26,158 nucleotides of DNA from IMG/VR virus record IMGVR_UViG_3300010885_069969, positions 1 through 26,158 of that record; one strand, written 5' to 3'. The position numbers were made by a program, and so were the translations under genes. Below the pieces are notes generated by a model. That model was not told the DNA's origin. It saw only the letters and a program-made list of their open reading frames with translations, and ran no database searches. Position 1 is the first letter of the stretch, and the number at the start of each line of letters is the position of its first letter. This document shows, piece after piece, positions 10,792-25,373 of this stretch. Origin of the DNA: a virus.

Positions 10792-10819
10792 ATAATACTC
10801 TAACGTCCCATAATGTCAA
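10792..10819 (-). promoter_or_regulatory. Sigma70-type promoter for ssb
   Basis: On the minus strand there is a perfect -35 box TTGACA (10819-10814), a 16-base spacer and a -10 box TATTAT (10797-10792). Transcription would start near 10785, about 40 bases before the ssb ATG. The -35 box overlaps the stop codon of the dnaE C-terminal gene. Confidence 0.7.
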
Positions 10820-11943
10820 GTTCGTGGGGCAAAACATTTTTCAACAATCAGTCCATCCTTTGATTTGCTGCGAGAGCCAACAAATATTAGGATGTTATTG
10901 ATGAAAATATGCGGCTTGTATTCGCTCCACTGCTCTGGAAATAATATTACAGAATCTAGTAGGCCGAATTGATCTTCTATACTTACAAAGGCCATTTCTT
11001 GTCCGGGGTTTTTTCCAACCTTTGTTTTAGTAACATTAACATTACTTATTTGACCAGCAATAATAATATTTTTTGTCATATTAGAATTTTTAAACTCTTT
11101 ACAATCAGTATTTGCCATACTAATATCATATATATCTAATTTAGAACAACTAATTGCTACTCCTAGTGACGAATTCTCTGAATCCGATAACCATTCTATC
11201 TTATCTAATAGCGAATATGGGGGATTTTTAAGAGAATTAATTAAATTATTCATTACATCTACTCTATTTTTATTAACTTTTTTAGTGGAAACTAAAATTT
11301 GTAATATTTTTTCTATTCCTATATTTGGATTCTCTATTAAGATATCATCATAATATGTCATCTCTTTTTTAGTTAGATTAGAACAAATATCAAACTCAAA
11401 AAGCATTTCTGTTCTATTTTTCTTAAAATAATCTAATGCCCCAGCACTTATAAGAGCTTTTGCTGCTATAGAATTAATATTCAGTAAAAGTTTGGATAGT
11501 ATCTGCGGCCATGTTAGCTTACCAATATCCTCACTATTAGTTAGGGTTAATATTTTTTTATATACAGAAGCCCCAACCCCCTTTATGTCCGTTGATCCGA
11601 AATAAATATTCTTATCTTTAAGAATAAAAAACTCATTAAGATTTCTTAAATCTGGAAGATGAACCAATATATCCATTTGGTTCGCATTTTTTACTAGTTC
11701 TTTAATTTCTTGCTGTGGATCTATTTTATCTTTTGCATATCTAAGATATGATGCAAAGAATACTCTTGGAAAATGAGCTTTAGCATAGGCCGATAAATAT
11801 CCATTAATAGCATAACTAACAGCATGAGAATTTGATGTTGCTATACCATTACCATAGAATAAATGATTGTCTGAGGATACTTCTATGTCTACTGTTGGCT
11901 TAATACCAATTTTTTCAATTTTAATAATTTTTTGGGGGTACAT
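10816..11943 (-). CDS. dnaE: DNA polymerase III alpha (DnaE), C-terminal piece with C-part of split intein
   Basis: A 375-aa primary product. Residues 1-38 are a C-terminal intein fragment with the block-F pattern (TVDIEVSSDNHLFYGNG) and the end IATSN. Residues 39 onward begin SHAVSYAINGYLSAYAKAHFP, the continuation of the conserved DnaE FNKSHAVAYA motif. A helix-hairpin-helix-type region (FGSTDIKGVGASV, LISAGALDYF) follows. The last 100 residues look like the OB domain (IIAGQISNVNV, EMAFVSIEDQFG). The first 23 bases overlap the 3' end of the endonuclease gene. It has no polymerase catalytic Asp of its own and must be joined by protein trans-splicing to the fragment encoded at 12876-13775. 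Confidence 0.9.
   Translation of the reverse strand: MYPQKIIKIEKIGIKPTVDIEVSSDNHLFYGNGIATSNSHAVSYAINGYLSAYAKAHFPRVFFASYLRYAKDKIDPQQEIKELVKNANQMDILVHLPDLRNLNEFFILKDKNIYFGSTDIKGVGASVYKKILTLTNSEDIGKLTWPQILSKLLLNINSIAAKALISAGALDYFKKNRTEMLFEFDICSNLTKKEMTYYDDILIENPNIGIEKILQILVSTKKVNKNRVDVMNNLINSLKNPPYSLLDKIEWLSDSENSSLGVAISCSKLDIYDISMANTDCKEFKNSNMTKNIIIAGQISNVNVTKTKVGKNPGQEMAFVSIEDQFGLLDSVILFPEQWSEYKPHIFINNILIFVGSRSKSKDGLIVEKCFAPRT
11830..11943 (-). other. Split intein, C-terminal part (DnaE)
   Basis: 38 residues from Met1 to the terminal Asn of IATSN. The layout closely follows the C-parts of cyanobacterial split DnaE inteins such as Npu, which ends GFIASN; the penultimate residue is Ser in both. 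The residue after the junction is Ser (SHAV), which would be the nucleophile in trans-esterification. Confidence 0.88.
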
Positions 11944-12838
11944 TATAAATTTTCCTTAAATAATTTTTTCTTGCTTGAATGGCTTTTGGGGATCTGTTTG
12001 GAAGTAAAGTTATTAAATTTTTTGTATCTCTTTGATTTAAATAAGAAATAATTATATCGTCTTCTAGTTTGGACCAAAATTTATATTTATTATTTATCAA
12101 TAAAAATTTATTATATTTTCTATCTAGCTTAAATTTAGCATCTTTATACATAATATTAAATAATTTTAGACAGTCTGTTTGGGAGAATGTTAATTCATAA
12201 TATTTATCTTTGACTTTACGCAAGTTACCGAACCCAAGATAATTTTGAAAATCTATTAAAATTTGTTGTGAAGCAGATACGATGTTGGAATAGTAATAAT
12301 CTTTACCTCCTTTATAAAAATTAGTTTTCCATATTGATCCGTCGCCATCAAAAAATCCTCTTAAAAAGTGGGCAATATATTTATTAGGTATTTTTTTAGG
12401 TAGTTCTAAATTAAAAGTTTTCTCATGATCAATACCAAAAGTTAATAATTTTTTATGTAATTGTTTTGAATATATACATAATTGACATTTATCTTGAGAT
12501 ATTCTAACTTTAGAAGTTGGGGATAGACGGTCTCTAATAAAGTTTAAAACTAAAATATCATTTTTATTAATTCCTATGGTTATATATGGCCTATTTTTCC
12601 ATACATGTCCATCCGAAGCTATAAAACCAAGACAGTAAGCCATATCATCTGACCATGTATTAAAATATGTATCTATAGCATGGTATTTGATTTGTGATCC
12701 ACTTGATTTTTTAGGAATATTATATTTTGTTAAATAATTTAGTACTGTAGTTTTTCCTATATTTTTTATATTAGATATCTGTATAGAACTAAGATTTTGA
12801 TTAATATATAGTTCATATAGTTCATTTTTTGTGATCAT
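11921..12838 (-). CDS. Free-standing LAGLIDADG homing endonuclease between split-intein halves
   Basis: A 305-aa protein. Residues about 14-45 look like a helix-turn-helix (SSIQISNIKNIGKTTVLNYL). Two LAGLIDADG helices follow: CLGFIASDGHVW (about 69-80) and FLRGFFDGDGSIW (about 158-170), each with the metal-binding Asp. The C-terminal 45 residues resemble a Myb/SANT-type DNA-binding domain (FWSKLEDDIIISYL, LLPNRSPKAIQARKNYL). It lies exactly in the gap between the two intein halves, where bifunctional inteins carry their endonuclease domain, but has its own start (ATG 12838, GAG about nine bases upstream) and stop. It probably spreads the intein locus by cutting intein-free dnaE. Its 3' end overlaps the downstream gene by 23 bases. 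Confidence 0.85.
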   Translation of the reverse strand: MITKNELYELYINQNLSSIQISNIKNIGKTTVLNYLTKYNIPKKSSGSQIKYHAIDTYFNTWSDDMAYCLGFIASDGHVWKNRPYITIGINKNDILVLNFIRDRLSPTSKVRISQDKCQLCIYSKQLHKKLLTFGIDHEKTFNLELPKKIPNKYIAHFLRGFFDGDGSIWKTNFYKGGKDYYYSNIVSASQQILIDFQNYLGFGNLRKVKDKYYELTFSQTDCLKLFNIMYKDAKFKLDRKYNKFLLINNKYKFWSKLEDDIIISYLNQRDTKNLITLLPNRSPKAIQARKNYLRKIYNVPPKNY

Positions 12839-12875
12839 AAATAATTCTCAAAGAGTATGGTTTAATAAATATTAT

Positions 12876-13775
12876 TTATATACACATAATTTCTAGTTGA
12901 TTTAATAAAATTTCCGATAAAGGATATATTTTCCCATCATTACATAAAAATTTATGCTCCATAGTACAAGTAATAGATTTTCCATCTTCCAGAGTAATTT
13001 TAAATACTTCTTGTTCACCATGATCATATTTATTTATTACTTCAACATATTCGTCTTTGTTGCCGGAATTAGGAGCTAAGATTTTCTCACCTATTTGAAG
13101 ATCTTTTATTTGTTTATCTCCGTATGGAGTAGAAACCATAGTATCCTCTAAAATCGACTTATTAAAAGAATACCTCTGACTCTTTTCGATCCAACCAAAG
13201 ATTTCTTCAGCTTCTTCTGTAGTTACTATTTTTAGCTTTTTAGCTCCCTCTATAAACTTAATTTTCACCTTTGCCATTTCTTCTGGCTTCTTTTTACCAA
13301 TAGCTTTTCTTAACATATCAGCTTCTTGTAAATCAAATCCGGCAATAGCCTGAGTAATTTGCATAGCCTGCTCTTGATAAATCATCTCACCATATGTACT
13401 TTTTAAAGACGGCTCTAATGCAGGATGAAAATAGTCTACGCTCTCTAGATGGTTTTTCTTATCTATAAAATGATTTGCTACGCTTTTACCATCTCTAAAA
13501 GCCTCCAACGATCCCGGCCTCATAATACTAATTAGAGCTGATAATTGTTCTATATTTTCTGGCTTTAGTTTTTTAGCCATACTTTGTCCCAATCTAGACT
13601 CTAACTGAAAACATCCTTTAGTATTACCCTCTCCAATTAAATCCCAAGTTCTTTTACAATCTAGACTGATATCCTCAATCTTTGGAGAAAACAAGATTTT
13701 TGGAAATGCTTTATTAGATCCATCTAGAACAGGGAATTTACATCCACAATCCTCAAACTTAAAAAAATCAGACAT
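12876..13775 (-). CDS. dnaE: DnaE middle piece with N-part of split intein
   Basis: A 299-aa primary product. Residues 1-206 are the fingers region of a C-family polymerase: TKGCFQLESRLGQSMAKKL, ISIMRPGSLEAFRDG, STYGEMIYQEQAMQI, FDLQEADMLRKAIGKKKPEE, then QRYSFNK. The last 93 residues are an N-terminal intein fragment. A longer frame reaches an ATG at 13829, but ATG 13775 is chosen: it has GTGGGG upstream, overlaps the exonuclease stop in ATGTCTGA, and the extra 18 residues would not match DnaE. The catalytic Asp residues lie in the separate upstream piece (14656-16541). How that piece associates with this one is not visible; it may be non-covalent. Confidence 0.88.
   Translation of the reverse strand: MSDFFKFEDCGCKFPVLDGSNKAFPKILFSPKIEDISLDCKRTWDLIGEGNTKGCFQLESRLGQSMAKKLKPENIEQLSALISIMRPGSLEAFRDGKSVANHFIDKKNHLESVDYFHPALEPSLKSTYGEMIYQEQAMQITQAIAGFDLQEADMLRKAIGKKKPEEMAKVKIKFIEGAKKLKIVTTEEAEEIFGWIEKSQRYSFNKSILEDTMVSTPYGDKQIKDLQIGEKILAPNSGNKDEYVEVINKYDHGEQEVFKITLEDGKSITCTMEHKFLCNDGKIYPLSEILLNQLEIMCI
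12879..13157 (-). other. Split intein, N-terminal part (DnaE)
   Basis: 93 residues beginning Ser1 (SILEDTMVSTPYG, block A) and containing block B (TCTMEHKF). The stretch GEQEVFKITLEDGK is strikingly like Npu DnaE-N (GEQEVFEYCLEDGS). It ends at IMCI and a TAA. Cys1 of the cyanobacterial inteins is Ser here. The extein before the junction ends FNK; the C-part continues with SHAV, so splicing restores FNKSHAV. Confidence 0.9.
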
Positions 13776-14481
13776 TGTTCCCCACTGTTTTGTTTGCGAA
13801 AGATCCCTTGAATGTAACCTTTTTTGCACAAGTTCTATGTAGCTTTAGAAATCTAATCAGAATATCTGCTGTATCCCTAACATCCTTTAGAGCATCATGC
13901 CCACCCTCTTTACTTATGCCAAAATAATCTCTTAAATTATCTAAAGTATAGCTCTTTACTTCACTATTCCCCTCAAACCAATAGAAGATCAAATTCATAA
14001 CATCAATAACATCTCTTGGATAAAATAGATTAGATGTTCCTTCTTTATTGACATTCTTATATTTCTTACTTAGTCTATCGGTAATTCTCAAATCATACCT
14101 ATTAATATTAAACCCCGATGCTATAGGAGCACTAAATAGGGATTTTCTATCATTTCTGGTATGATACATATCCAAGTAAGAGATGAATAATTTCCACCCC
14201 TGTTCTTGCTTTTGATAAGTCTTCCACTCTGCTAAAACTTGATCTTTAGTAGAAGATTTTACTTTAGCATGAAAATCTAGGACATCACTATCTTCATAAG
14301 CATAATTAGGATTAGCATCCAATGATTCTGGCCTCATATTAATATTAAATTCAGAATCTTTAACTATTTCTAGTCTAATGGGGTCAATTATTAATGCCGC
14401 AATTTGAACTGGACTACAAACTTCTGGATTTTTACCATCGGTTTCTAGATCGAATACACAGATTTTTTGAAAATTAGCCAT
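13768..14481 (-). CDS. 3'-5' proofreading exonuclease, DnaQ-like (DEDDh)
   Basis: A 237-aa protein with the ExoI motif FDLETDG (Asp11, Glu13), a central NINRYDLR region likely to hold the ExoII Asp, and the ExoIII motif HDALKDVRDTADILIRF (His195, Asp200). This is the DEDDh class of DnaQ/epsilon-type exonucleases. It would remove mismatched 3' ends for the phage DnaE polymerase, whose gene pieces flank it on both sides. The first codons overlap the stop of the 59-aa gene (ATGGCTAA) and its own stop overlaps the next dnaE piece (ATGTCTGA). Expression of polymerase and proofreader is thus coupled. No clamp-binding peptide was recognised. Confidence 0.88.
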   Translation of the reverse strand: MANFQKICVFDLETDGKNPEVCSPVQIAALIIDPIRLEIVKDSEFNINMRPESLDANPNYAYEDSDVLDFHAKVKSSTKDQVLAEWKTYQKQEQGWKLFISYLDMYHTRNDRKSLFSAPIASGFNINRYDLRITDRLSKKYKNVNKEGTSNLFYPRDVIDVMNLIFYWFEGNSEVKSYTLDNLRDYFGISKEGGHDALKDVRDTADILIRFLKLHRTCAKKVTFKGSFANKTVGNNV

Positions 14482-14653
14482 TTGTAATAACTGTAGAGTC
14501 TCCTGAGATAAAATTTATATTACTGGGATCGCCCGATACATAACAATTTACTGATGAGCAACAACTTATTTGAACTGTATCCATCTTAACGTATTCTGTT
14601 TGACTAAATACAAACTTTTCGCCTACTGCAACATCTCTAAAAGCTTTTTCCAT
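14474..14653 (-). CDS. 59-aa protein of unknown function
   Basis: A small gene with good start signals: GGAG, seven bases, then ATG 14653. The ribosome-binding site lies within the last codons of the dnaE N-terminal piece, whose stop is at 14656-14658. The product begins MEKAFRDVAVGEKFVFSQTEY. This opening (hydrophobic/basic start, VGEKF, then an aromatic residue) recalls small bacterial and phage proteins that begin KxFxDVPVGxxF. It contains CC and a further Cys but no clear zinc site. The stop overlaps the exonuclease start by eight bases. Its placement between polymerase and exonuclease suggests involvement in replication, with no direct evidence. Confidence 0.65.
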   Translation of the reverse strand: MEKAFRDVAVGEKFVFSQTEYVKMDTVQISCCSSVNCYVSGDPSNINFISGDSTVITNG

Positions 14654-14655
14654 TT

Positions 14656-16541
14656 TTATTCTCCATTTTTTAATATGTCTGAAATTGTCATAAGTTTATC
14701 TAACACAGCAACTCCTAATATATCAAATTTAATAATCCCCAAAGCTTCCAAATCTTGCATCTCCATTCCTGCAATAGTTTGTTTGTTTTTGGAATCATAA
14801 ATCATAGGACATACTGAAGATAGATTTTCGCTACTGATAACTACACCGGCGGCATGTTTAGACTGATTGGCTTTTGTTCCTTCTAATCTAATAGCCTGTT
14901 CAAACCTTTTGGCAAGGGGGCCAGCCAAACTTCCGTCATCGTCTATATAACACCACTCTTTTAATTGTTCAACATTATTTTCCAAGGCCCATCTTATAAT
15001 TGATGGATCTTCTCCATCTTGTCTCATTTGTTCCAATTCATCGGAAATTTTAGCTTCGTCTGGTATGCTTTTCGTTATTTTATTCATTTCTTCAAACGAA
15101 ATATTACCATATACTCTTAATACTTCTTTTAGGGCTCCTCGACCTTTCATAGTATTATATGTGATCATTTGAGAGACTTTTTTATGACCATATTTATTCT
15201 TGATATATTCTATTATAAATTCTCGCTTATTAATAGGAACGTCAACATCAATATCTGGCATAGAAATTCGGTCTTTAGTATTTCGACCAGAGTTATAAAA
15301 CCGCTGGAAAATTAAATCGTACGGGATAGGGTCTATGGACGTAATACCAATTAAATACGACACCAAACAGCCGGATGCTGACCCTCTGCCCGGCCCCGGC
15401 AACCATCCCTGCTCCCGTACAAAGTTAACAATATCTTGAACAATTAGGAAGTAACTAGACAAGCCAGCACCCTGCAATACTTCCAGCTCATATTTAATTC
15501 GGTCAACATAAATTGAATGCTTTTCTTTATCTATAGTCTTGTCAATTTTCTGCTTCCATCCTTCTCTACACAGCTGCCTTAAATAAGTATCAGGATTATA
15601 TTCTTTTGGACACTCAAAAGAAGGTAATAACGGCTTGCTTAAAATATTATACTCTTCACATAAACTATCTACATAATTAGTATTCTCTATTTCTTCCGGA
15701 GTATGCAATTCGGCCATTTCTTCTGGAGATAGAATATAGAAATTATCAGATCTAAAAAAACAACTCATTGGAACTTTCTCATTATTTAATAATTTCTTAT
15801 TAATATCAACAATAGTTGTTTTTAAAGTATTACATAATAATATTCTTTGATCAACAGCGTCCTCTTTTTCACAATAATGAGCGTCGGGAGTACAAATAAC
15901 CTTAGTTTTAGTGAGCTCTCCAATTCTACGAATATGCTCAGTCATCTCTGTCATTTCTGGAGTATATTTATAATCCATCAATTGTGATTCAAGATAGAAA
16001 TTATCCTGCCCAAAAATATCTTTCATTTTTGCAACAAATTCGATTCCTATTTTTGAAGCATTGTCTCGATCTTGTTGTATTAGGTCGGACAAATAAGAAC
16101 CAAGATGTCCACAAAAACCAATAATATTACCGTCTAAAAATTGAGACAGCTTATCAAAATCTAATCTTGGCTTATGATAAAAATTGTCTCCAGAATTAGA
16201 GGCTGAAACAATCTGGATTAAATTTTTCCATCCTTTATAGTTTTTTGCTAATAATAAAAAGTGGCTAAGATCACTATTTTCCTTAGTTTTAATATTACTA
16301 TCTTGATGAGATAAATATATTTCACAACCGAGAATTGGTTTAATCTTTTTAGCTTTCATAGCCTGATAGAATTGTACACAACCAGATATTGATCCATGAT
16401 CTGTTATGGCACAAGATTTAACATCTATTTTAGTACATCTTTGAGCTATTTGGCTTGGTTTACTGAGTCCATCCAAAAGTGAATAATGAGATTCACTTAA
16501 GAATGGACGTGTAAAGGACTATATTCCTTAATCACGCCCAT
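14656..16541 (-). CDS. dnaE: DnaE N-terminal piece: PHP and palm domains, start interrupted by an 11-nt gap
   Basis: Uninterrupted coding runs from about 16518 to 14656. Numbered from TTG 16476 (606 aa), the PHP domain has metal ligands Asp26-His27, Glu52, His72, His124, Asp198 and His200. The palm has GPGRGSASG (361-369), PDIDVDV with Asp408 and Asp410, and KFDILG with Asp585, the three polymerase carboxylates. The missing PHP HxH strand is present upstream in another frame: ATG 16541 (AAGGAG ten bases before) encodes MGVIKEYSPLHVHS, then TAA. Skipping 16489-16499 gives HVHSHYSLLDG and a 624-aa product. If not recoded, translation must begin downstream (for example TTG 16476) and lose the HxH. 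It ends in the linker just after Asp585; the rest of DnaE is at 12876-13775. Confidence 0.8.
16477..16502 (-). promoter_or_regulatory. Candidate translational bypass (recoding) site in dnaE
   Basis: On the minus strand: codon TCT (16502-16500), stop TAA (16499-16497), GTGAA, a second TCT (16491-16489), then CAT TAT TCA. A hairpin AAGTGAAT / loop CTCATT / ATTCACTT with an 8-bp perfect stem occupies 16498-16477. If peptidyl-tRNA leaves the first TCT and lands on the second, 11 nt are skipped and the PHP motif HVHSHYSLLDG is restored exactly. Matched codons, an immediate stop and a hairpin are features of the T4 gene 60 bypass. This is an inference; no expression data are available. Confidence 0.45.
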
Positions 16542-17250
16542 ACTTTATATTCTCCTTGTTTTTTGTGACCCGTCCGCACATCTGAATAAAATCAGAAAGA
16601 GGAAAGTCTAGTTTCATTTTGTTGATTTTTGTATCCGTCCACCAAACATTATCTTTCGTGTATCCTTTGGTGCTATCTATCCTATCCACAGATCCGTTTT
16701 TGTCAAGATCTATTTCTAATCCAGTAATCGCACATTTGCGATGTTGTTTCTCAAATAAATCCCATAAAAATTTTGCAGTAAGATTGAATTGAAAATTCTT
16801 TTTTTTTGCTCTTAATCGGATTTCTGCTATTCTACTACCACTAACTCCACAATATCCTTTCCATCTATGATTTTTGAGTCTTTTGCGATAACACCCACAA
16901 CTACCAACTCTTCCATTTTTTAGTTGTGAGGTTCTTACTTTAGTAGTCTTTCCACAAGAGCATTTACATAACCAAATTAAAGTGCCGTTTTTAGATTTGC
17001 TATCTACACTAATAGTAGTTAAGTATTTAAATGTATCTCCTATATTAATTTCTTTGGTTCTTTTTTCTTGAGGGATACCGTAATATTCTAGATAGTTATA
17101 AATAGTTTTTGCTGAAACCCCTAATTTTTTTGCTATTACATATGGTCCTTTTTTACTTTTACAATATTCTTCTTCTAAATATTCTTTAGTAATTTTTTTA
17201 TCGTATGCTTTTACAAATCTTCCATTGCTAACTTTCCTGCCTCTTTTCAT
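16528..17250 (-). CDS. HNH homing endonuclease inserted at the start of dnaE
   Basis: A 240-aa protein. Residues about 20-60 form a likely helix-turn-helix (GPYVIAKKLGVSAKTIYNYL). The middle has a four-Cys zinc-type module (WLCKCSCGKT, VGSCGC) common in phage HNH proteins. The C-terminal nuclease has CAITG, SVDRIDSTKGYTKDNVWW and NKMK, the layout of phage HNH endonucleases. The start ATG 17250 has AAAGGAG seven bases upstream. It is flanked by two copies of the beginning of dnaE, so it probably cuts that site in a related phage. Its last codons overlap the second dnaE start (ATG 16541). No group I intron core was found around it, so it seems to be a free-standing (intronless) element. Confidence 0.85.
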   Translation of the reverse strand: MKRGRKVSNGRFVKAYDKKITKEYLEEEYCKSKKGPYVIAKKLGVSAKTIYNYLEYYGIPQEKRTKEINIGDTFKYLTTISVDSKSKNGTLIWLCKCSCGKTTKVRTSQLKNGRVGSCGCYRKRLKNHRWKGYCGVSGSRIAEIRLRAKKKNFQFNLTAKFLWDLFEKQHRKCAITGLEIDLDKNGSVDRIDSTKGYTKDNVWWTDTKINKMKLDFPLSDFIQMCGRVTKNKENIKYGRD

Positions 17251-17262
17251 ATTTATCTCCTT

Positions 17263-17279
17263 TATGATATATTATCATA
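17263..17279 (-). repeat. Stem-loop next to the endonuclease ribosome-binding site
   Basis: A perfect inverted repeat, TATGATA / ATA / TATCATA on the minus strand, directly 5' of the AAAGGAG of the HNH gene. It could modulate translation or RNA stability, as hairpins do before some phage homing-endonuclease genes. It is short and AT-rich, so its stability is limited. Confidence 0.4.
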
Positions 17280-17302
17280 TACACCAAAATTTTAAATTTT
17301 AG

Positions 17303-17341
17303 TTAGTGAGCATGTACATGGAGAGGAATATAATTTTTCAT
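17303..17341 (-). pseudogene. Stranded first 12 codons of dnaE
   Basis: ATG 17341 shares ATGA with the stop of the 69-aa gene and reads MKNYIPLHVHAH, then TAA. PLHVH(A/S)H is the HxH start of a PHP domain and continues naturally into YSLLDG, which now lies about 0.8 kb downstream beyond the HNH gene. The remnant matches the second copy (EYSPLHVHS) at protein level, but codons differ (CTC/TTA, CAT/CAC, GTA/GTC), so the two copies come from diverged dnaE alleles. This was probably the original start, cut off when the endonuclease gene arrived. Confidence 0.7.
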
Positions 17342-17547
17342 TTATCTCTAATTGATTGAAGGGCTTTTTTGGCTACTTGTTTTGCTTCATACAAACTATT
17401 GCTATCTAATATAGAAAGTAGTGATATTTGCATATTTTTAATTATAGGATTTATACTATCTTCAGCAAATAAATTATTATACCAATTATCATCATAATAT
17501 AATGTTTCTTGTAAATATTCTTGTTGCTGAATTTGTCTTTTGGTCAT
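17338..17547 (-). CDS. 69-aa protein of unknown function, first gene of the polymerase operon
   Basis: A small acidic/Gln-rich protein (MTKRQIQQQEYLQETLYYDD at the start, helical C-terminus YEAKQVAKKALQSIRDK). No family recognised. It has AGGA six bases before ATG 17547 and is the first gene after the strong promoter at 17578-17606. Its TGA overlaps the original dnaE start in ATGA, pointing to former translational coupling with the polymerase. Confidence 0.65.
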   Translation of the reverse strand: MTKRQIQQQEYLQETLYYDDNWYNNLFAEDSINPIIKNMQISLLSILDSNSLYEAKQVAKKALQSIRDK

Positions 17548-23300: not shown

Positions 23301-25373
23301 TTATTCCTTTACAAAGCCAAGCATCTTTTTGATATCTAGATATAGATTATTATAGATTTCTTTATTTTCTATTAAATAGTTTCTAATCTTTTCTGTTCCT
23401 TGAAATTTGGGCTTATCTTCTAAAAAGGATAGAGTATACCAAGAACCAGTTTTTTCTATTAATCCAAAACTAATAGCTAATTCTATAACTTCCTTATATT
23501 CATCTATACCTTCTCCATAACGAATATAGCTAACAGTTTCTCCTCCGGGAGCCCCTAATGCACACCATTGTACAGTCCAATGAACCTCTTGGCCGATTGG
23601 ATTACCTTCTTGGGTTAAAGACCATAAAGTGTGATATTTTGCTCTTAATTTAACGTCACCCTGATAACCAATACCTTGACCGCTTTTTTCTTTCCACTCA
23701 GCATGTCCATTACCGGGATTTCCCATTAAATGAGTAATACCAATAACGATATTTTTATTAACAGCAATAACATTCGCTACTTTTCTACAAAATTTAGATA
23801 ATAGTTTTGGACCATCTGCTCTTTGCATCTTATCCATATCGCTCGTTAATTCTGTTTCTGTACATAATGCAGAATAGGAGTCTATAATTACTACGCAACC
23901 GGGTTCTTCATTAATTACTCTATCCGCAATTTGCAGAAACTTTTCAGCAGTAAGAATGTTCCCTTGTTCTGAACCAATGATGTGAAACTTTTCTTTATTG
24001 ATTCCGGGAATACCAGCTAAATCTCGTGGCTTTATTCTTCCTTCCACATTAAAATAATAAACATTTCTATTACCATATTCGGGTTTTTGTGCATTCGCAG
24101 CAAAAGATAAACTGGTGAGGGTATTATGGGTTATAATAAATTCATTAGTTAAAAAAAGACCGTCTTGGGTATTGATTTTAATACATGTTGCCTTTTCCCG
24201 ACATATATGTGAAACATTAGTTATTGTTCTGAATAAAGGAGGTTTTTTTCTTGGGTTATTGAATTTTTTTCTCTTTAACTGGAATAGAGAATCTATATTA
24301 TTTCCATGAATATATAAGCGATAAGATAGAAATTTCTGGTTTGATCCAGTATAGCTTGTGTATCTGGAGACTATTTTAGCTGTATACCCTAGAGATTGCA
24401 AAATTTCTTGAACATCTTTAGCTAGAGTTTCTGATACGCTAGTATATTCGGCTCTAAAACCGTCACTACTACCATCAGTATCCATCAAACCCCTAATTAA
24501 TTTAAGTCTATTCTTTAGACTGCTATATTTATAGCTTTCTGGAATAAATTTAGTATGAGAATTAGTTCCCATTATATTAATTCTTTTAAGTTTTTTGGTT
24601 AAAGTATTTCCAGAATTTTTACTTTGTTCAACAATATGAAAATCGATATTATTTTTTATAGTAATTTTTAATTTATTATTCTTGGCATACGTTGTAAATT
24701 TTTTTCTAATAGATTTATCACAAGTAGACATTCCAGGAGTTTTGGCAGATAGACATCCGTCACCGATCAGGCATCCGAAAATATATGGGTCAATTTCTAG
24801 CTTGTCGTTTCTATTAAATTGTACTGGTTGAGTTAAAGATATTTTCCACTTATATCTATCATTATATCTGAGTCCAGATTTTAGTATTTCTTCTAATGAC
24901 ATTGTTATAAATTTATTAGATCTATTATTTTTTGCTACAGTCCAATTGTGGTCTAGTGTGCATTTTGCTTTTGATCCGTCATTAAAGGTAACTTCATAAA
25001 TATCCATTTCTCCTTGAGGATATACTCCGATTACTTCGGCTGTATCTCCAGCTGGAGTATTTACAATATCTCCTAGTGAAATTTCTCCCATTTTTTTAGG
25101 GCCTTTAGGAGTATAAACTATAGAAGAATTAGCTAAACTTTTCCCACATTTTGGCTGACCTGTAAATACCACAAAGCTACCTTCTGGTATACCCCCTCCT
25201 AAAATTAAGTCAAGAGCTGGGCTAACAGGAATGACTATGGTTTTCTTATCCATCACATAATTTGCATCCACCACTATACCAGCCCCGAAATCTTTTTTAA
25301 TGCTACTTAGCATTTTATCCGAAGCATTTACAGATTTTTCAGAATCAACTTCCTTTTCCTTCGTTTTAGCCAT
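23301..25373 (-). CDS. recA: RecA/UvsX-like recombinase with an in-frame intein
   Basis: A 690-aa precursor. Residues 1-78 are RecA up to the Walker A loop GQPKCGK; 79-417 are an intein; 418-690 continue TLTSLSFAANAQ. Splicing gives a 351-aa protein, the normal RecA size, with P-loop GQPKCGKT. Later motifs include VVIIDSYSAL (Walker B) and VIGITHLMGNPG (DNA-binding loop region). It catalyses strand exchange during phage recombination and repair. Because the intein sits in the ATP site, the precursor should be inactive until spliced. The first codons overlap the upstream stop in ATGGCTAA. Confidence 0.93.
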   Translation of the reverse strand: MAKTKEKEVDSEKSVNASDKMLSSIKKDFGAGIVVDANYVMDKKTIVIPVSPALDLILGGGIPEGSFVVFTGQPKCGKSLANSSIVYTPKGPKKMGEISLGDIVNTPAGDTAEVIGVYPQGEMDIYEVTFNDGSKAKCTLDHNWTVAKNNRSNKFITMSLEEILKSGLRYNDRYKWKISLTQPVQFNRNDKLEIDPYIFGCLIGDGCLSAKTPGMSTCDKSIRKKFTTYAKNNKLKITIKNNIDFHIVEQSKNSGNTLTKKLKRINIMGTNSHTKFIPESYKYSSLKNRLKLIRGLMDTDGSSDGFRAEYTSVSETLAKDVQEILQSLGYTAKIVSRYTSYTGSNQKFLSYRLYIHGNNIDSLFQLKRKKFNNPRKKPPLFRTITNVSHICREKATCIKINTQDGLFLTNEFIITHNTLTSLSFAANAQKPEYGNRNVYYFNVEGRIKPRDLAGIPGINKEKFHIIGSEQGNILTAEKFLQIADRVINEEPGCVVIIDSYSALCTETELTSDMDKMQRADGPKLLSKFCRKVANVIAVNKNIVIGITHLMGNPGNGHAEWKEKSGQGIGYQGDVKLRAKYHTLWSLTQEGNPIGQEVHWTVQWCALGAPGGETVSYIRYGEGIDEYKEVIELAISFGLIEKTGSWYTLSFLEDKPKFQGTEKIRNYLIENKEIYNNLYLDIKKMLGFVKE
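24123..25139 (-). other. Full-length intein with LAGLIDADG endonuclease in the RecA P-loop
   Basis: 339 residues. It starts Ser1 (SLANSSIVYTPKGPKKMG, block A), with block B near TLDHNW. Two LAGLIDADG helices are visible (IFGCLIGDGCLS and LIRGLMDTDGSSDG). It ends with block F/G (GLFLTNEFIITHN). The residue after the junction is Thr. All splicing and endonuclease residues seem intact, so it should be both able to splice and to home. Confidence 0.92.

Follow-up and report, generated by a model that had tools for sequence, protein, structure and literature searches.

The 5' end of the dnaE gene studied here probably carries a mobile cassette, made up of an HNH homing endonuclease gene and a short programmed translational bypass element. 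It also seems likely that elements of this type form a widespread family of natural, short-range programmed ribosome hops, spanning 6-9 nt from the base of a hairpin to its loop, on which uncultured phages rely to make their replicative polymerase. On this reading HNH endonucleases spread the elements, and dnaE could no longer do without them once the endonuclease was lost. The observations behind this reading are the anatomy of the site, its conservation and covariation, the linkage to HNH genes, and the patchy spread among relatives. The window is the whole 26,158-nt stretch analysed (IMGVR_UViG_3300010885_069969); the relevant features are listed below in their order along the minus strand.

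17338-17547, minus: 69-aa ORF, upstream of the stranded start
17303..17341, minus: stranded native dnaE start MKNYIPLHVHAH*, with 11/12 residues as in the native start of relative L001
16528..17250, minus: HNH endonuclease gene, 240 aa, matching PHROG endonuclease profiles
16552..16557, minus: Shine-Dalgarno (SD) sequence AAGGAG of the new dnaE start, within the HNH reading frame (from the sequence)
16500..16541, minus: leader ORF MGVIKEYSPLHVHS, with the putative take-off codon TCT at 16502-16500; 31 distinct leaders compared
16503..16541, minus: alternative 5' hairpin (predicted), ATGGGCGTG (16541-16533) with CACGTCCAT (16511-16503); 99.1% of cells paired
16467..16508, minus: take-off hairpin (predicted), MFE -27.7, z -5.25
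5' side of the take-off hairpin in the fold, minus: GTCCATTC (16508-16501), TT, AAGTGAAT (16498-16491)
Loop and 3' side of the same fold, minus: CTCATT, then ATTCACTT (16484-16477), TT, GGATGGAC (16474-16467)
16492..16499, minus: non-coding gap TAAGTGAA, whose first codon is the stop TAA (16499-16497); 6, 7, 8 or 9 nt in relatives
16489..16491, minus: putative landing codon TCT; NCN in 38/38 elements, with the HVHS-HYSLLDG spacing restored
14656..16491, minus: rest of the DnaE N-terminal part, from landing codon to stop; PHP and polymerase regions intact

On the minus strand a PDDEXK gene is followed by the 69-aa ORF, MKNYIPLHVHAH*, the HNH ORF, AAGGAG, the ATG at 16541, MGVIKEYSPLHVHS, and TAA. 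The first-pass annotation had described two copies of the dnaE start that differ in their codons, and had taken the upstream copy, coupled to the 69-aa ORF through ATGA, for the resident start; both points are borne out. It also had the downstream copy continue directly into the rest of DnaE, which is incorrect, since the stop codon and the change of frame were missed: TAA occupies 16499-16497, and the dnaE frame is back only at 16491 after an 8-nt gap. The leader thus ends in TCT-TAA, and dnaE picks up 8 nt on in another frame as S-HYSLLDG. This remainder (from ...SHYSLLDGLSKP) reads TCT CAT TAT TCA CTT TTG GAT from 16491, and decoding would restart at the CAT at 16488, after the landing TCT. 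The Pfam models PHP and DNA_pol3_alpha match the DnaE N-terminal part, and the same part is uninterrupted in relatives.

We retrieved 80 IMG/VR relatives using DnaE residues 3' of the junction, so the sample is not biased towards any form of the dnaE start. In 61 of them the start is uninterrupted (M..Y.PLH.H[S/T]..SLLDG), usually with an ATGA overlap with the PDDEXK stop; the remaining 19 have a stop-plus-gap element at the same point as the window. The nearest element-free relative, L001 (DnaE 79% identical to the window), begins with MKNYIPLHVHSHYSLLDG. This native start matches the upstream copy, which is therefore native and not a chance resemblance; its overlap with the stop of the 69-aa ORF has the same ATGA form as the native overlap with the PDDEXK gene. 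The comparison of dnaE 5' ends also shows that the downstream copy is not the native start, and here the first-pass annotation stands. The 69-aa ORF had no family match and was absent from every fetched relative. A second stranded start, MKNYIPLHAHSH*, was found in L137 and is broken at the same codon as that of the window, so that the cassette's left border falls at HVHSH|Y.

A pattern scan yielded 56 stretches and two more scans added 3 further contexts; together these were reduced to 38 distinct elements. Because the pattern required parts of the motifs ATGGRCRTK and CAYGTCCATTC, the invariance of these motifs is to be judged on the 20 unbiased cases retrieved by DnaE alone, all of which keep the CAYGTCCATTCY part. 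The finding of 38 distinct elements in many contigs rules out an assembly error. A scan of genome contigs gave 20 matches, of which 19 were unrelated to dnaE and were taken as chance; the remaining one, L165, is a phage-like contig in a Chitinophagia MAG bin and has the element and an HNH remnant.

The site of the element is the dnaE start in 38/38 cases, and an SD-like motif precedes 37 of the 38. The take-off codon is TCT (25) or TCC (13), and it is followed immediately by TAA (23), TAG (13) or TGA (2). The distance from stop to landing codon is 6 nt in 10 elements, 7 nt in 12, 8 nt in 15, and 9 nt in one. Landing codons are TCT (12), TCA (9), ACT (7), GCT (6), TCC (3) and GCC (1). If the ribosome hops from the Ser to the NCN codon, the native spacing HVHS-[H/M][Y/F/D]SLLDG results in every element. 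The set shows what is expected of programmed bypassing of the gene 60 type: in each of the 38, a stop directly follows the take-off TCT or TCC and a non-coding gap lies between two conserved frames, and across the set, with gaps of 6, 7, 8 and 9 nt, no one simple frameshift accounts for the resumption. The window has TCT at both positions, and the landing codon is cognate to the take-off tRNA-Ser in 15/38; it is non-cognate in the 9 elements with TCA and the 14 with ACT, GCT or GCC, so re-pairing there would use two of three bases. Mismatches between take-off and landing codons also occur in Magnusiomyces capitatus (PMC5009743).

As the gap lengths cover all three phases, no one fixed frameshift or read-through can serve all elements. 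That each lineage uses its own kind of ordinary frameshift or stop read-through is very unlikely: one suitable shift does leave an open path in 35/38 elements, but several different events (+1, -1 and read-through each fit part of the set) would be needed at one conserved site, 2-4 extra residues would enter a conserved PHP motif, and in three elements (L002, L065, L093) a TGA also closes the shifted frame.

The residues Y, P, L, H, V, H and S (Y.PLHVHS) are invariant in the 31 distinct leaders, while their codons vary synonymously (two each for P, H, S and Y, and five for L). The codons GTC CAT do not vary, which a need for GTCCAT to pair would explain. This pattern suggests that the leader is translated as part of DnaE; leader conservation by itself could also reflect DnaE function and not a nascent-peptide signal. 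The HxH motif of the leader is one of those of the PHP domain; the others, TDHG, GCE and PDAHY, align with Thermus DnaE. In an unlikely alternative, the 14-aa leader would be a regulatory uORF, and re-initiation at the TTG at 16476 or at a post-stop GTG would give a DnaE that does without the HxH motif. Gene finders place the start at this TTG, which is found at codon 5 past the landing codon in most elements; but it lacks an SD sequence, sits within the hairpin, and is CTG in L004 and L094, the former having no other start before codon 44, while the GTG is in frame only in the gap-6 elements. A uORF would not need the exact native Y.PLHVHS residues, and the PHP remainder retains metal-site-like residues in the alignment to Thermus DnaE, which also speaks against an enzyme without the HxH motif.

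Two RNA hairpins are predicted at the site. The take-off hairpin of the window folds as GUCCAUUC-UU-AAGUGAAU-[CUCAUU]-AUUCACUU-UU-GGAUGGAC, with the take-off codon at the internal loop, the stop codon in the 5' arm and the landing codon at the loop. A predicted take-off stem-loop that involves the stop codon, together with a 5' stem-loop, is a further expected feature of bypassing. The median fold z-score is -4.8 in the 38 carriers versus +0.2 in 49 non-carriers. In the carriers' 3' arm, the major-codon fractions for S-L-L-D-G are 0.84, 0.92, 0.95, 1.00 and 0.95, against 0.51, 0.49, 0.59, 0.73 and 0.51 in non-carriers, and they fall to 0.63 and 0.42 at the next two codons. The synonymous sites of dnaE are thus frozen exactly over the 3' arm of the hairpin; recent co-conversion as the source of this freeze was ruled out, since it stops at the hairpin's end. 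Pairing holds in 94.5% of cells for the take-off hairpin, with double changes in 3 pairs and few variable pairs. In the 5' hairpin (AUGGRCRUG/CAYGUCCAU), a GC to AU double change is present in 6/24 sequences. Both hairpins need GUCCAU and are therefore mutually exclusive; a switch between them as the ribosome passes is possible.

The hairpin is an inverted repeat in DNA as well, and it might be a palindromic recognition or protein-binding site with the frame break as a tolerated defect. We give this very little credence: the reading frame is intact on both sides of the gap, and the element persists in many HNH-less lineages, in the sole dnaE found in large carrier records. Twelve such records (86-238 kb) contain one dnaE each (in two pieces in G010), and no PolA-type polymerase was detected in them. 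This makes it very likely that carriers need the gene, although the records may be incomplete and carriers may have a second polymerase.

The HNH protein has an N-terminal HTH, a Cys-rich zinc-finger-like segment and a C-terminal HNH. It matched PHROG profiles 3322 (E 7e-22), 374 (E 7e-17) and 1035 (E 7e-16), and had no match to Pfam or NCBIfam HNH models; the HNH alignment, used as a profile against the PDB, found no match, and the AlphaFold model (pLDDT 57.5) was too poor for use. The HNH stop codon falls within the leader of the new dnaE start. Nine contigs, the window among them, have a full-length HNH ortholog (57-74% identity), and in 9/9 the gene lies directly upstream of the element. 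The first-pass annotation had supposed that a homing endonuclease moved in with flanking dnaE sequence from a diverged phage; this linkage agrees with an HNH cassette having brought the new start, although the start is not simply diverged dnaE and belongs to a conserved element with a stop, a 6-9 nt gap and a large predicted RNA hairpin. Remnants of the HNH gene are present in L057, L094, L065 and L165, and most other carriers appear to have lost it, the distance from PDDEXK stop to leader ATG being 2-102 nt. On the DnaE tree, the presence of the element requires at least 14 changes, at least 6 of them forced by supported branches (by a quick method). The patchy spread and the HNH linkage together fit homing-driven horizontal spread and later endonuclease loss.

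N-terminally truncated, more distant HNH genes precede an uninterrupted dnaE start in L060 (1-338) and L061 (upstream of 4725); possibly the element was lost along with HNH activity, or this is a different HNH. In L004 and L010, a related HNH gene (35-42% identical) is located one gene further upstream, 5' of the PDDEXK gene.

HNH genes are often found within introns, and one proposal sees the T4 bypass as a degenerate intron (PMC5009743). Splicing of the mRNA at a group I intron, another kind of RNA intron or an intron remnant is nonetheless exceedingly improbable: there was no Rfam match, even at a relaxed E-value, HNH-less carriers would lose just 6-9 nt, and 2-102 nt leaves no room for a ribozyme. 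A AAGGAATATAGTCC motif before the junction resembled a group I intron core and was rejected in view of the Rfam result and the lack of room in HNH-less carriers; a conserved ribozyme core between exons, the mark of a group I intron, was not found.

Under the bypass reading, the endonuclease would presumably cut dnaE genes that lack the insertion, close to the HVHS-HY codons, and repair would then copy in the cassette together with the dnaE start that it carries. Translation would begin at the new SD-ATG and run through M..Y.PLHVHS until the Ser take-off codon is reached with the stop codon in the A site, where the hairpin starting in the stop codon would block release. The peptidyl-tRNA-Ser would then detach, the mRNA would slide by the length of the hairpin's 5' arm, 6-9 nt, and at the loop edge the tRNA would pair again, on the NCN landing codon, with HYSLLDG... 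coming next. The ribosome thus probably hops the gap to make the polymerase. We infer this hop, the nuclease specificity and the protection of the host gene from the sequences compared; with its target divided by the gap, the nuclease should spare the host gene, a form of protection also proposed for T4 mobA and gene 60. Retention of the bypass after HNH loss in many lineages would follow from dnaE now depending on it. Bonocora et al. (2011, in PNAS) reportedly regarded the T4 nuclease and bypass as one mobile cassette in which the bypass guards against self-cleavage. The same nuclease-bypass cassette idea for T4 is given in PMC5009743 (its ref. 158).

The first-pass annotation had likened the site to the splitting of a T4 topoisomerase gene by mobA. 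The likeness to mobA holds, but the comparison is not with gene splitting only, as the gene 60 bypass sequence also belongs to it (PMC3014915, PMC5009743, PMC11194080). Both systems have an HNH gene upstream, an essential replication gene, a take-off codon with a stop directly behind it, a stem-loop starting in the stop codon, a 5' stem-loop, and relatives in which the gene is uninterrupted. T4 gene 60 encodes a topoisomerase and has a 50-nt gap, a leader of 46 codons and a Gly take-off, whereas the window-type element lies in dnaE, with a gap of 6-9 nt, a leader of 13-14 codons and a Ser take-off. Unlike in T4, the landing codon is in the predicted hairpin loop and often non-cognate, many phages and lineages are involved, many of them without HNH, and the gene gets a new start instead of being split by the insertion.

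The byp elements of M. capitatus mitochondria are also numerous short inserts bypassed in translation, but they occur in many genes and reportedly do not depend on the mRNA context (PMC5009743), in contrast to the single phage dnaE site and strong predicted structure here. The candidate in the terminase of Streptomyces phage Hau3 likewise involves a phage, a short coding gap and a suspected hop; it is tied to a rare UUA codon, and no homing endonuclease is mentioned (PMC5009743). The free-standing mob endonucleases of T4 are also HNH enzymes encoded between or inside essential genes, overlap their neighbours and show no promoter of their own (PMC2988022), but differ in domain make-up from the protein described here, which has an HTH and a zinc-finger-like part ahead of the HNH.

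For bacteria and their phages, T4 gene 60 is the long-standing reference for programmed bypassing, and the arrangement has so far been known mainly from this one gene; counterparts, perhaps of shorter range, have long been presumed to exist (PMC5009743). The 38 distinct natural variants of one predicted hop amount to a ready-made mutational series in gap, stop and landing codon. They also lend independent support to homing endonuclease and bypass travelling together, with stages represented by full HNH, remnant and none.

Further interruptions were seen elsewhere in the window, all on the minus strand where a strand is given. A DnaQ-like exonuclease gene (13768-14653, minus) lies between the N-terminal and middle parts of dnaE, a split common to the whole phage group. 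Within 10816-13829 (minus), the DnaE middle part ends in an intein N-half, and the intein C-half carries the DnaE C-terminus; with a LAGLIDADG ORF (11921-12838) between the halves, this is a split intein with a homing endonuclease inside, and it was present in no fetched relative. From a reading of the sequence only, a RecA-like protein (23301-25373, minus) appears to hold an intein with an endonuclease-like region.
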